Below, in pieces: positions 1,975 through 8,035 of a stretch of 8,035 bases of DNA (its first letter is position 1; every line of letters starts with the position of its first letter). Below the pieces are notes generated by a model. The model was not told the DNA's origin. It did not search any database and worked only from the letters and a program-made list of their open reading frames with translations. Position numbers and translations under genes: made by a program. The stretch is taken from positions 1-8,035 of the forward strand of contig JAGUYV010000049.1 in NCBI GenBank assembly GCA_020061125.1, given 5' to 3'. The stretch is from a bacterium. GTDB taxonomy: Bacteria > UBP15 > UBA6099 > DSWB01.

Positions 1975-2631
1975 TCAGTACAAGCCGTCGCGGGTGAAAC
2001 CTCCCTGGTGGCAACGGAAGCACTCCCTGGAGGAGGGCATCATGCTTTCGAGTTTGTCGTGATTTTTCATGGGCGCGGATACGCTTGCGGCACCGGACGC
2101 TTTGACAAGCTCGCCCCGGGCCGCGGTTACGGACTTGCCGCCGGACTGGACTTCCACGGAACCGTCGCACACGCAGAACCAGGCGTTGTCATCGGATTCC
2201 ACGATGGAGCTGAAGGCCGTGCCTCGCACTCCGGCCACGGCCGTGGGTGTCTGGACCTCGAAGCGCTTGTCCGAAGTCAGCTTCTGGGCTTTGGCCCATA
2301 CGAATCCGTTGTCGTGCTTCACGCGCACCTGGTTCTTGCCGGGCATGGTCACGGTCACTTTGCTCAACGGGCCGATGAACAGCAAGTCGCCGGTGGCAAA
2401 TTTGACAACCAGGGATTCCTTTGCGCCGGTTGTGATTACATCGCCTTCAATGATTTCGGCGTTGACGGCCGCAGGCTTCTCTTTCTGATTGCTGAACAGC
2501 TTCGGATGGCCCTGCAGCTTGACAATGCGTCCGGACGCCGCGCCCGGAGCCGCGGAATTCAGAAACAGCAGCGGCACAAGAGCCACGGCCGCCACGAATA
2601 ATGTGCGGATGAATTTGTTTAAGGTCATCAT
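1975..2631 (-). CDS. Secreted FecR-domain protein with a C-terminal CxxCH haem-c motif
   Basis: This is a 218-residue protein with an N-terminal export signal (basic start NKFIR, hydrophobic core to about residue 25, cleavage likely near residue 32). Residues about 33-177 are a FecR-like domain. The family landmarks are visible: a G-rich first strand, IIEGDVITTGAKESLVVKFATGD, and the hallmark PTAVAGVRGT at about residues 129-138, followed by DGSVEV. A CVC pair (C153, C155) lies just before it. The tail carries CFRCH (C204, C207, H208), a covalent haem-c attachment motif. H191 and M197/M198 are possible sixth ligands. The start at 2631 is chosen because GGGAGA lies about 6 nt upstream; M at 2628 is equally possible and the TTG at 2655 unlikely. 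It begins 32 nt after the porin gene, so co-transcription is likely. A FecR domain normally senses or binds in the periplasm; no sigma factor or TonB receptor is nearby. Confidence 0.85.
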   Translation of the reverse strand: MMTLNKFIRTLFVAAVALVPLLFLNSAAPGAASGRIVKLQGHPKLFSNQKEKPAAVNAEIIEGDVITTGAKESLVVKFATGDLLFIGPLSKVTVTMPGKNQVRVKHDNGFVWAKAQKLTSDKRFEVQTPTAVAGVRGTAFSSIVESDDNAWFCVCDGSVEVQSGGKSVTAARGELVKASGAASVSAPMKNHDKLESMMPSSRECFRCHQGGFTRDGLY

Positions 2632-2663: not shown

Positions 2664-3977
2664 TTATTTGTCATAGGTGATTTGCAGGTAGGCCCAGCTT
2701 GCGTTCTGCGTGGCGTTCCACCAGTTCGCTACGCTGCTCAAATTGCCGGGCACATAGACCGAGTAACCCAGATGATAAGTCGCGGGGCCGTTTGTGCGGA
2801 ACCGCCACTCGAAGTCCCATTCGGTTCCGGCATCACTGGGTGCGGATGCGCCGTTCGGCCACAGATTGCCCGCCGCGCTGTATCCGGCAGGGGTTCCGTC
2901 GGCCAGAAACCACGCGGCTTCCGGGCTTTCGAGCCGAAACTTGTGCACCTGCACCAGGCCGAGTACGCGAGGACTGATTTTATAAAATGCGTATAGTGTG
3001 ACAATGTTTGCGTTCATGGGGCCGAACCAGTCCATGGCGCCGAACCGGTTGTGGTTGGCCGGGAAGGGCTGCTGAAAGGTTTCATACCGGTCCGCTGTGC
3101 CCGTGTCGTCGCCCGAGCCGGAGCTGAATTCGATGCCGAAATTTGTGAACACGCGGCCCGAGGCGAAAAAGTCCGCGCCCAGCATGTAGTGCCACGCGCG
3201 GATTTTCTGGCGCTGGCCGGGCGTGAGCTGCGGTTCGAACTTGGTGGTTTTTCCGATTTGGTAGTGCGCTTGTCCCAGCAGGGTCCATCGGGGCGAGAGC
3301 TTGCCGGCGCGCCGCGCGCCCAGTGTGTACAAATCCTGGTCCACGGCCGCGCCCGTTCGCAGATAGGGCCGCCGGTTGTAGAACAGGCTGTATTCGGTCT
3401 CGGTGTTGGTGAAGCTCACATGCCTGGCGTTGAGCCCGGCCAGAAAGCCATCCCGCCCGCTGGTGGACGGGTCCGAAGGCCAGGCGGCGACGGCGTCCAG
3501 ATCCCAGTTGCCGGACTCTTTGCTGACCCGCGCGCCGTCGAATGTGTTGCCCACGAGGTCCCAGTCGTCCGGCGCAACGAGCAGTCCGCCGCCGAAATGC
3601 AATTCCTGCCGCCCCAGGCGCACGAATGATTCCTCTCCAAACAGGCCGCGGGTTTCCACGAAGGCCTGATGGACGCGACCGTATTCTCCGGGTTTGAAAG
3701 CCGTGTCCGCGTTGCCGAACCCGTTGGCTGTGGCCGCGCGCAACTGGAGCAAGCCCCGGCTGCCGGAGGCCCATGTGCGTTCCGCTGTCACATCCGCCCG
3801 GAGAGAATGCAGCACTGTTGCACTCCCTTCGGAAGACCTTCGTATTTCGTACTGGTTGAACCGCTGGAAATGCTCCATGCGGTATCTCAACTGCGTGGAG
3901 ACCTCCGCCTTAACGGACTGTGCGGCAAATAGCATCAACAGCCATAATACCGCACACAATACCTTGTCGTTTCTCAT
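2664..3977 (-). CDS. Outer-membrane beta-barrel porin, alginate-export (AlgE-like) family
   Basis: This 437-residue protein has a clear signal peptide (MRNDKVLCAVLWLLMLFAAQ, then SVKA, cleavage near residue 24). The rest alternates polar and aromatic residues in the manner of beta-barrels. The stretch at about 120-150 (VRLGRQELHFGGG, APDDWDLVGNTFDG) is typical of the alginate-export domain family. Other barrel-like strands include YSLFYNRRPY, GQAHYQIGK and FEWRFRTNG. The barrel probably passes small solutes across the outer membrane. AlgE itself exports alginate, but many family members sit in genomes without alginate synthesis, so the substrate is unknown. The start at 3977 has GGAG about 8 nt upstream; a TTG 12 nt earlier overlaps this site and is unlikely. 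It is the first gene of a probable operon with the FecR-haem protein 32 nt downstream. Confidence 0.85.
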   Translation of the reverse strand: MRNDKVLCAVLWLLMLFAAQSVKAEVSTQLRYRMEHFQRFNQYEIRRSSEGSATVLHSLRADVTAERTWASGSRGLLQLRAATANGFGNADTAFKPGEYGRVHQAFVETRGLFGEESFVRLGRQELHFGGGLLVAPDDWDLVGNTFDGARVSKESGNWDLDAVAAWPSDPSTSGRDGFLAGLNARHVSFTNTETEYSLFYNRRPYLRTGAAVDQDLYTLGARRAGKLSPRWTLLGQAHYQIGKTTKFEPQLTPGQRQKIRAWHYMLGADFFASGRVFTNFGIEFSSGSGDDTGTADRYETFQQPFPANHNRFGAMDWFGPMNANIVTLYAFYKISPRVLGLVQVHKFRLESPEAAWFLADGTPAGYSAAGNLWPNGASAPSDAGTEWDFEWRFRTNGPATYHLGYSVYVPGNLSSVANWWNATQNASWAYLQITYDK

Positions 3978-4025: not shown

Positions 4026-4054
4026 ATTATAGTGCAAACCGCAAAAAATTTTAA
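4026..4054 (-). promoter_or_regulatory. Promoter of the porin-FecR unit
   Basis: Reading the minus strand, TTAAAA (4054-4049, four of six -35 bases) is followed at exactly 17 nt by a perfect TATAAT (4031-4026). A run of A and T bases upstream could act as an UP element. The predicted start near 4019 leaves a leader of about 42 nt. TTGTGACAA, a short odd palindrome at 4090-4098, lies about 75 nt upstream of that start and may be a regulator half-site. Confidence 0.6.
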
Positions 4055-4148
4055 AAAAAGGAACCGCAAACGCCGCAAGTTCGTTATATTTGTCACAAGC
4101 AACAAAGATTTCCTCTATACCCCATAACCCCTCATAATCCACTATTCC

Positions 4149-4291: not shown

Positions 4292-4307
4292 TGTGATCCC
4301 GATCACA
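4292..4307. promoter_or_regulatory. Perfect CRP/HcpR-type palindrome
   Basis: TGTGATCCCGATCACA is a perfect TGTGA-N6-TCACA palindrome, the consensus of CRP-family regulators. From memory, HcpR of Desulfovibrio, which controls nitrosative-stress genes, uses a CRP-like site of this type. It lies 117 nt before the receiver ATG and about 280 nt upstream of the porin promoter start, so the receiver gene is the likelier target. A weak TTTATT -10 candidate at 4349-4354 would place the site centre near -61.5. Confidence 0.6.
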
Positions 4308-5073: not shown

Positions 5074-7353
5074 TCACACGGGGATCTCGGTGTCTCCTTC
5101 GAGCGCGATGGGTTCGCCGCCCTTTACCTGTGCGGGTTTCATGTTCACGAATGCGCGCAGGAAGAACGCGGCCAGGGGAAACGCGCCCAGCACGATGATC
5201 ATGAGATCCGGGACCATGCGGATCTGGCCGATGAACTGCACGATGGGGCGGTCGAAGAACGCGGAGCTTTTGGCGTACCACATGCCGTGCGCATACGAGG
5301 CCGCAGTCTGCATCACGCCCACGGGCAGGAGTGTGAACAGGAACATCACGAACAGGCCGCCGTTGAGTCCCACGAAGGCGAGTTTGAGCAGGCCGTCGTT
5401 CCAGCGGTCCTCGCGCACCAGGCCGCGCCAGGTGAACAGGCACAGGGCGATGGAGAGCATGCCGTAGGTTCCGAACAACGCCGTGTGCCCGTGGTTGCTG
5501 GTGAGGTATGTGGCGTGTTCGTAGTAGTTGATCACGGGCAGGTTGATGAGGAACCCGAACACGCCCGCGCCCAGGAAGTTCCAGAACGAGCTGGCCACCA
5601 GGAACATGAGGGGCCAGCGGTAGGGGAAGTTCACGCCCGCGTCATTGATGTGCTTGTACTCCATCCAGCCGCGCACCACGAGCAGAATCATGGGGATTGG
5701 TTCGAGGGACGAGAATGTGGCGCCGAGCGCGATCCAGATGTCCGGGCCGCCGAACCAGAAGTAGTGGTGAGCGGTGCCTACGATGCCGCTGGAGAAGGAC
5801 AAGATGGCGGTGAGGTATGCGGCGCGCAGAGCGGATTCCTTGGAGACCAGGCCCACGGCCGTGAGCAGCAGGGCCAGGGACGCGGCGGCGAAGAACTCGA
5901 AGATGCCCTCGACCCAGATGTGGACCACGAACCAGCGCCAGTAGTCGGCCACGGTGATGTGCGAATGCTGGTTGTAGAAGAGGCCGAAGCCGAAGAACAG
6001 GACCACGGCGATGGCCGAGAGCACATAGAACAGGGTGAGGCCGCCGGCGCGCTCCTCGGGCCGCGCCAGCCGGGGCGCCAGAGCGCGGTATGCGATGCCC
6101 AGCCAGATGATCAGCCCGGCGAACAGCAGAATCTGCCACAGGCGGCCCAGCTCCAGATATTCCCAGCCCTGGTGGCCGAGCCAGAACCATGTCTTTTCCG
6201 AAAGAAAGCCCTTGATGCCCAGGACTTCGCCGAACAGGCTGCCGAGCGCCACGACGAGCACGGCGCCGAACAGGATGTCAACCAGCACGCCCTGGCCCTT
6301 TGGCTCGCGCCCGCCAATGAGCGGCCCGAGGTACAGGGCGCTGCCCACCCACGAGACCGCGATCCAGAAGATGCCGAGCTGCAGGTGCCAGCTCTTGACC
6401 CAACTGAACGGAATGAAGTCCGCGATGGCCTGCATGTAGAAGGCGCCCGGATGCACGGTGTAGTGCGCCAGAAGGCCGCCCATGAAGATCTGGAGAATGA
6501 ACAGAAGAATGACGATCAGCAGATATTTGGCGGCCTTGCGCTGGCTCACGGACACGGGCGCGGCCGCGATCTTGCGCGCCAGCTCCACGAGGTTCATGTC
6601 GCCGTAGAAGAATCTGTAGCGGTGCACCACATAGATGATGAAGCCCAGAACGCCGAGCAGGGAGATGAGGCCGAACAGGCTCCAGATGACCGCGTTCTGC
6701 GGCAGCTCGTTGCCCGCGAGCCGGTCCGGGGGCCAGTTGTTTGTGTAGGTGAAGTTCTTGTCCGGGCGGTTGGTGCCCGCGACCCAGGCGGTCCAGAAGA
6801 AGAAATCGCCGATGGCGTCCCGCTCCTGCTCCGTGGGCACGGCGCCGGGCAGGTACCCGTGGTGCGTGTCCCCGTCTCGGAAGGTGTCCTGCCAGAACTT
6901 TTTAATCTCGCTCACGGCGAACGCCTGCGCCGGGGACAGGGACAGGGTTCCGGTCTGCGGATCGTAGGTATTGGTTTTGATGTCGTGAAGCGCCAGGGCG
7001 TCTACCGCGCCGCGTTCCGCGGTGTCGAGTTCCGCATAATCCTTGCCGAACCGGTCTTTGGCGTAGTAATCGCGCAGGCGCAGCGCCATGATGTGCAGGG
7101 ACTCGGCCGAGAAATCGTGGCCGCGCAGCGAGCCGTGGCCCCACACGCTGCCGTGGTCCATAAGCCCGTAGCGCTGGTACACCTGCTGGCCCTTCATGAT
7201 GGACGCGGCGCTCATGAGTTGCCCGCCATCGGCCACCACGGCTTCGGGATACGGGGGCACCTTGTCCAGAGCGTAACGGCCGCCGATGAGCAGCACGGCC
7301 ATGGCAGCGACGAAGCTGATGACCGCGCCCCATTTCAATGTTTTCGAGACCAT
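5074..7353 (-). CDS. norB: Quinol-dependent nitric oxide reductase (qNOR), complete
   Basis: This reduces two NO to N2O in the cytoplasmic membrane, taking electrons from quinol. The 759-residue length fits single-subunit qNOR rather than the roughly 450-residue cytochrome-dependent NorB. An N-terminal helix (about 9-25) is followed by a soluble domain (about 30-215) that carries no CxxCH, as in qNOR. Then come about 13 hydrophobic helices. Haem ligands by family position are H323 (SWHLQ) and H623 for low-spin haem b, and H621 (SNHGH) for haem b3. H478, H529 and H530 (AHHYFWFG) with E482 (HIWVEGIFEF) form the non-haem iron site; glutamates replace the Tyr-His pair of true oxidases. The ATG at 7353 has AAGGAGG 5 nt upstream. 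It is transcribed alone, with a strong terminator and a 288-nt upstream region. The FrdX-type gene upstream is on the same strand. A detoxifying role is more likely than denitrification, since no other denitrification genes are visible. Confidence 0.95.
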   Translation of the reverse strand: MVSKTLKWGAVISFVAAMAVLLIGGRYALDKVPPYPEAVVADGGQLMSAASIMKGQQVYQRYGLMDHGSVWGHGSLRGHDFSAESLHIMALRLRDYYAKDRFGKDYAELDTAERGAVDALALHDIKTNTYDPQTGTLSLSPAQAFAVSEIKKFWQDTFRDGDTHHGYLPGAVPTEQERDAIGDFFFWTAWVAGTNRPDKNFTYTNNWPPDRLAGNELPQNAVIWSLFGLISLLGVLGFIIYVVHRYRFFYGDMNLVELARKIAAAPVSVSQRKAAKYLLIVILLFILQIFMGGLLAHYTVHPGAFYMQAIADFIPFSWVKSWHLQLGIFWIAVSWVGSALYLGPLIGGREPKGQGVLVDILFGAVLVVALGSLFGEVLGIKGFLSEKTWFWLGHQGWEYLELGRLWQILLFAGLIIWLGIAYRALAPRLARPEERAGGLTLFYVLSAIAVVLFFGFGLFYNQHSHITVADYWRWFVVHIWVEGIFEFFAAASLALLLTAVGLVSKESALRAAYLTAILSFSSGIVGTAHHYFWFGGPDIWIALGATFSSLEPIPMILLVVRGWMEYKHINDAGVNFPYRWPLMFLVASSFWNFLGAGVFGFLINLPVINYYEHATYLTSNHGHTALFGTYGMLSIALCLFTWRGLVREDRWNDGLLKLAFVGLNGGLFVMFLFTLLPVGVMQTAASYAHGMWYAKSSAFFDRPIVQFIGQIRMVPDLMIIVLGAFPLAAFFLRAFVNMKPAQVKGGEPIALEGDTEIPV

Positions 7354-7641: not shown

Positions 7642-8035
7642 TCAGAACCATTCCTCGGCGAGTACGCCGCCGCGCACGCTCACGGTCACGGCCTTGAGGG
7701 GGGCTTTGCGCTTGCTGGCGTCGAGCGCGGCGCGCGCCATGTTCAGAAGCCCCATGCAGCAGGGAACTTCCATGATGGCCACGGTCAGAGTGTTGATCTC
7801 CGCGTCCTCGAACAGCCCCTTGATTTTCTCCACATAAATGTCCTGGCCCTGGTCCAGCTTGGGGCATGCGATGGCCAGGCTTTTGCCCTGGAGGAAATCC
7901 TTGTGGAAGTCGCCCGCGGCGTAGGCCACGCAGTCCGCGCTCAAGAGCACGTCCGCGCCTTTGAAATACGGGGCCGCCGGGGACACCAGATGAAGCTGGA
8001 CGGGCCACTGGCGCAGTTGCGACGCGCGCGCGCCC
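7642..8035 (-). CDS. FrdX-type 4Fe-4S ferredoxin-domain protein (C-terminal part; N-terminus off the window)
   Basis: The visible 130 residues match the C-terminal domain of a conserved anaerobe family that carries a 4Fe-4S ferredoxin domain at its N-terminus, outside this window. From memory, this is the family called FrdX in HcpR regulons, often next to hcp. Visible landmarks are RQWPVQLHLVSP, YFKGADVLLSADCVAYA (C35 of the visible part), KSLAIACPKLD (C57), MEVPCCMGLL (C92, C93) and the ending LAEEWF. The four cysteines may bind a cluster or a thiol. The frame is open to the window edge, so the in-frame GTG at 7986 is internal, not the start. It probably transfers electrons in nitrosative-stress defence, but its biochemical role is not established to my knowledge. 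A terminator separates it from the nitric oxide reductase gene on the same strand. Confidence 0.85.
   Translation of the reverse strand, partial: GARASQLRQWPVQLHLVSPAAPYFKGADVLLSADCVAYAAGDFHKDFLQGKSLAIACPKLDQGQDIYVEKIKGLFEDAEINTLTVAIMEVPCCMGLLNMARAALDASKRKAPLKAVTVSVRGGVLAEEWF

Follow-up and report, generated by a model that had tools for sequence, protein, structure and literature searches.

The known role of FecR domains is in signalling that connects sigma factors with receptors in the outer membrane. FecR itself attaches to the signalling domain that its receptor extends into the periplasm, and its topology, with a cytoplasmic anti-sigma domain at the N-terminus ahead of a transmembrane helix, is taken from the same source (PMC9249621). 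Adhesin retention domains also stay in the periplasm, where they hold their protein at an outer-membrane channel (PMC13090378). Very small haem modules are known from magnetochrome: in MamP, MamE, MamT and MamX, 19-28 residues carry one haem and are attached to another domain, with a PH ligand five residues ahead of the CxxCH (PMC3971196). A search of a text library returned no description of a FecR with haem c, the one paper that mentions both using the terms for different proteins, nor of a gene pair made of an outer-membrane barrel and a FecR.

We analysed a stretch of bacterial DNA of 8,035 nucleotides, called the window throughout, in which a gene for an AlgE-type outer-membrane barrel is followed by a gene for a FecR-domain protein with a CxxCH near its end. 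The features on which the comparison draws are the following.

1975..2631, minus strand: FecR-domain protein with a C-terminal CxxCH, 218 aa, apparently exported
2152..2442, minus strand: FecR domain, PF04773 (Pfam match)
2161..2175, minus strand: CVCDG (C153, C155), a CxC common to a small FecR group
2059..2061, minus strand: His191, putative distal haem ligand, from the alignment
1978..2022, minus strand: C-terminal tail CFRCHQGGFTRDGLY, predicted mono-haem c motif and conserved ending
2664..3977, minus strand: AlgE-type outer-membrane barrel, PF13372 Alginate_exp, 437 aa, first gene of the pair (Pfam and comparison)
4026..4055, minus strand: promoter-like TTTAAA, 18, TATAAT before the barrel gene (consensus match only)
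4292-4307: palindrome TGTGATCCCGATCACA (CRP/FNR/HcpR type) in the intergenic region that separates the barrel gene from the divergent response-regulator gene

The FecR gene runs on the minus strand from an ATG at 2631-2629 to a stop codon at 1975-1977, and a Shine-Dalgarno-like GGGAG was seen ahead of the ATG by inspection of the sequence; the plus frame across 1975-2631 holds no convincing gene, and Rfam gave no match. The first-pass annotation had placed the gene correctly at 1975-2631, and its description of the product agrees with what we find: a FecR-like domain with PTAVAGVRGT (PF04773 at residues 64-160, 46.8 bits against a cut-off of 24, the motif at residues 129-138), a poorly conserved linker, CFRCH near the C-terminus (residues 204-208) and a predicted secretion signal, which corresponds to a hydrophobic N-terminus judged to be signal-peptide-like at residues ~8-25. 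Three features were absent from this account: a CVC within the FecR domain, conservation of the residues that follow the haem motif, and a conserved barrel gene immediately upstream. The only cysteines of the protein are C153, C155, C204 and C207, the first two lying inside the FecR domain in the context WFCVCDG.

When the C-terminal part was used as a profile query over 386 genomes, a full-length match was obtained in one other genome (G182), and nothing else rose above noise. This relative (L044/L064, hereafter the L064 protein) is encoded in a MAG from groundwater that belongs to another phylum (JACQOF010000136.1), and its C-terminal end reads MQCLTCHQAGGTRDGLYGE. Both the CxC and the CxxCH are kept in it together with the last residues (CxxCHQxGxTRDGLY), and the identity between the two proteins, 31% overall, amounts to 11 of 15 in the last aligned positions against 28% elsewhere. 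On these sequence comparisons the CxxCH is not a product of chance: shuffling the window protein yields it in 0.11% of cases, and its conservation together with its flanks in the L064 protein is stronger evidence than the shuffles. The motif occurs in two of the 97 FecR ORFs that we collected, those of the window and of L064. A tree built from 92 FecR domains joins these two in one clade (support 100/97), separate from the remaining FecRs of either genome; since the L044 branch is long, its placement calls for some caution. A covalent-haem motif is very unusual for a FecR by this count, and the check proposed in the first-pass annotation, conservation across orthologues, came out in favour of the motif, with the CxxCH retained in the single orthologue found and no orthologue lacking it encountered.

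Furthermore, 84,980 species, each represented by a single genome, were scanned with a DNA pattern for CxxCHxxGxTRDGL, a scan that orthologues with a diverged tail would escape, and the L064 protein was the only FecR protein returned. Of the three other loci, L065 appears to encode an unrelated protein in which the motif is present, and neither L062 nor L063 has an open frame of at least 40 aa containing it. The six other genomes of the phylum of the window in the collection carry many FecR genes, none with a match reaching the tail, and the viral contigs scanned yielded no relatives. Matches on rhizobial plasmids, which reach residue 208-213, were set aside, the two proteins read, from Sinorhizobium sojae and Rhizobium sp. 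BG4, being large and having no CxxCH near the match.

The barrel of the window matches PF13372 with 102 bits. Its gene precedes the FecR gene on the same strand, with a gap of 32 bp to the FecR ATG, and the same arrangement is present in the L064 genome, where stop and start overlap by one base (TGATG). The two barrels are mutually closest (33% over 433 aa, 249 bits; the next best has 92), and a search with the window barrel against 356 genomes returned, at E below 1e-25, only the window genome and G182. As the conserved FecRs and the barrels are each mutually closest, the unit is a two-gene module. This module of a barrel and a candidate haem-FecR is so far found in two bacteria, which belong to different phyla, and its transfer between them appears likely.

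The pairing of a barrel with a FecR was also read in three genomes of the phylum of L064 (G035, G182 and G317), where a FecR gene adjoins the barrel gene in 17 of the 18 Alginate_exp barrel loci read, following the barrel as in the window; each genome contributed five or six such pairs (loci L075-L091). The barrel-FecR pairing itself therefore recurs. Apart from the orthologue (L064/L077), however, the FecRs of these loci are unlike the window protein in having no CxxCH and in falling into another clade of the tree, so that the pairing may have more than one origin. Among the barrel loci of other families an adjacent FecR gene was present in 2 of 28, both from one family and with the FecR on the other side of the barrel. 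The FecRs of L075-L091 are of the secreted type, and L080 has two consecutive FecR genes.

Models of the two orthologues were built from a two-row alignment and are consequently poor (mean pLDDT 57 and 52), the tail being without confident modelling. The model of the L064 relative matches the periplasmic domain of PupR (6ovk, E 1.4e-4) and BDI_1681 (4m0h), with E values from 1.4e-4 to 6.8e-4. The low-confidence window model matches the cell-surface anchoring domain of an antifreeze adhesin (5ix9, Z 6.8) over residues 31-119 (74 of 76 residues aligned), which is the N-terminal half only, and 5ix9 is found again (E 3.5e-4) by a sequence profile made from both orthologues. Searching the PDB by sequence with the window protein alone gave nothing useful.

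The window protein is like the FecR/PupR anti-sigma regulators in its PF04773 domain, in the fold match that the model of its L064 relative gives to PupR 6ovk and in its tie to an outer-membrane barrel protein. It is unlike them in its haem c motif and in what surrounds its FecR domain. PF04773 is the only domain match, with none to an N-terminal cytoplasmic anti-sigma domain, for which a hydrophobic segment starting at about residue 8 leaves no room; there is no transmembrane relay; and neither an ECF sigma gene nor a TonB-dependent receptor gene is adjacent among the neighbours in the window, which code for the Alginate_exp barrel, a radical-SAM maturase, a response regulator and qNor. The radical-SAM/SPASM protein (3-1031) scores above the cut-off for the anaerobic sulfatase maturase TIGR03942. 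Between its gene and the haem-FecR gene lies an AT-rich stretch with a hydrophobic ORF of 104 aa that belongs to no known family (1449-1763); the GC content is 28% at 1501-1800, compared with about 62% elsewhere.

The window protein may have the fold of the RTX adhesin retention domain (5ix9) over its N-terminal half, to judge from the match of a low-confidence model. It differs from the RTX adhesins in being small and stand-alone, in having no adhesin repeats and in the company of an AlgE-type barrel instead of a TolC-type channel. The tails of the window and L064 proteins resemble magnetochrome as a very small mono-haem module, with the haem here predicted, placed on another domain. They depart from it in that the nearest upstream His, His191 in the window protein, is separated from the first Cys of the CxxCH by 12 residues in the window protein and by 11 in the L064 relative, in a tail not modelled confidently, and in that the window has no magnetosome genes. 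The magnetochrome family PF18509 was rejected as an assignment: the L064 tail reaches E 0.017 and 15.1 bits against a cut-off of 30.4, and the window tail gives no match.

The barrel gene is the consistent neighbour in both genomes, and the evidence thus points first to a partner of the barrel. Because FecR is able to bind its receptor, periplasmic retention domains exist and the barrel gene is conserved, we infer that this is the most likely role of the protein. The module would comprise an AlgE-type barrel in the outer membrane and, encoded after it, a presumably exported partner with a FecR fold, which would sit at the periplasmic face of the barrel in the way of FecR/PupR-type domains on outer-membrane proteins. 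In this rare lineage the short C-terminal tail of the partner would bear one c-type haem. Such a haem would be a one-electron redox centre, and its simplest use is probably electron transfer or a response to redox state. We give this model as a whole, a FecR-fold partner of the barrel with a mono-haem c tail, a probability of about 0.5; the low confidence of both structure models and the presence of the CxxCH in two sequences only count against it. Attachment of haem to the tail, considered by itself, is rather probable. The conserved CFRCH lies in a protein with predicted export, as is expected of a c-type cytochrome, and attachment is plausible because the window genome has genes for c-haem maturation (four Cytochrom_C_asm matches, PF01578, over the cut-off).

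The main rival to the haem-bearing barrel partner, although we consider it unlikely, is a site without haem, in which the cysteines of the CxC and the CxxC, with or without His208, would bind a metal or form a pair of disulfides pinning the tail to the FecR domain. Such a four-cysteine site is possible because all the cysteines of the window protein are conserved as CxC and CxxC, both of them kept in L064, and the CxC occurs in other FecRs without CxxCH, several of which have C-terminal histidines, which suggests that the CxC by itself serves a metal-related or structural function. But the CxC of those FecRs occurs without the tail and so does not need it, and the His after the CxxC, which attachment of haem c requires, is retained in a genome equipped with the c-haem maturation genes. 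The group of CxCxG FecRs without CxxCH consists of L026, L053, L061, L134 and L135, three of the five having C-terminal histidines (NHT or GHT), and may have a metal site. Far less credible is an ordinary anti-sigma or structural FecR in which the CxxCH is incidental. The 19 FecR matches in the window genome and the absence of the motif from 95 of the 97 FecR ORFs would agree with it, but few parts of the protein are as well conserved between the two phyla as the motif with its flanks, by which this explanation is nearly refuted, and the low yield of CxxCH from the shuffles also speaks against it.

The first-pass annotation had further proposed a link to NO through a neighbouring NO reductase, that is, a periplasmic NO or redox sensor whose tail haem would bind NO and whose FecR domain would relay the signal. 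A qNor gene is present on the same contig, but at 5074-7353 it forms a separate transcription unit, outside the operon and beyond the divergent response-regulator gene, and no nor gene is found among the checked ORFs of the 11-kb L064 contig, which ends ~220 bp past the haem-FecR gene; the proposed link to NO is not supported. A sensor would be in keeping with the perfect TGTGA-N6-TCACA between the barrel and response-regulator genes, for which ~0.01 exact matches are expected by chance in the window, and with the occurrence, in three further genomes, of barrel homologues adjacent to genes for NapC/NirT, c552 or octahaem-type cytochromes. Against it, the CRP-type site is nearer to the response-regulator gene, the operon has no sigma factor or kinase, and the protein has no membrane or cytoplasmic part. 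NO sensing by the haem-FecR is possible, and the sensor as a complete account of the protein is improbable. A reading of the palindrome as an FNR-type site was discarded, the CRP/HcpR form being the better fit. The barrel genes beside cytochrome genes are Alginate_exp genes (L073, L115 and L119), and one of the three genomes belongs to the same taxonomic order as the window genome. Upstream of qNor lies an open-ended ORF (7642-7986); it contains PCCMG, is without a Pfam match and looks ferredoxin-like.

A more elaborate form of the barrel partner, which we regard as very improbable, would be a haem-controlled gate in the outer membrane: the partner would plug or brace the barrel, whose opening would depend on the state, redox or NO, of the tail haem. 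If this were true, the permeability of the outer membrane would follow respiration.

As a barrel partner with a predicted haem, the window protein would be an uncommon redox form of an envelope protein of a familiar type. The occurrence of a stand-alone FecR with a haem motif together with a barrel in two phyla suggests that the FecR fold serves as an outer-membrane partner outside sigma signalling. Such a barrel partner can apparently receive a redox centre, and the pair of barrel and FecR is common in at least one phylum.
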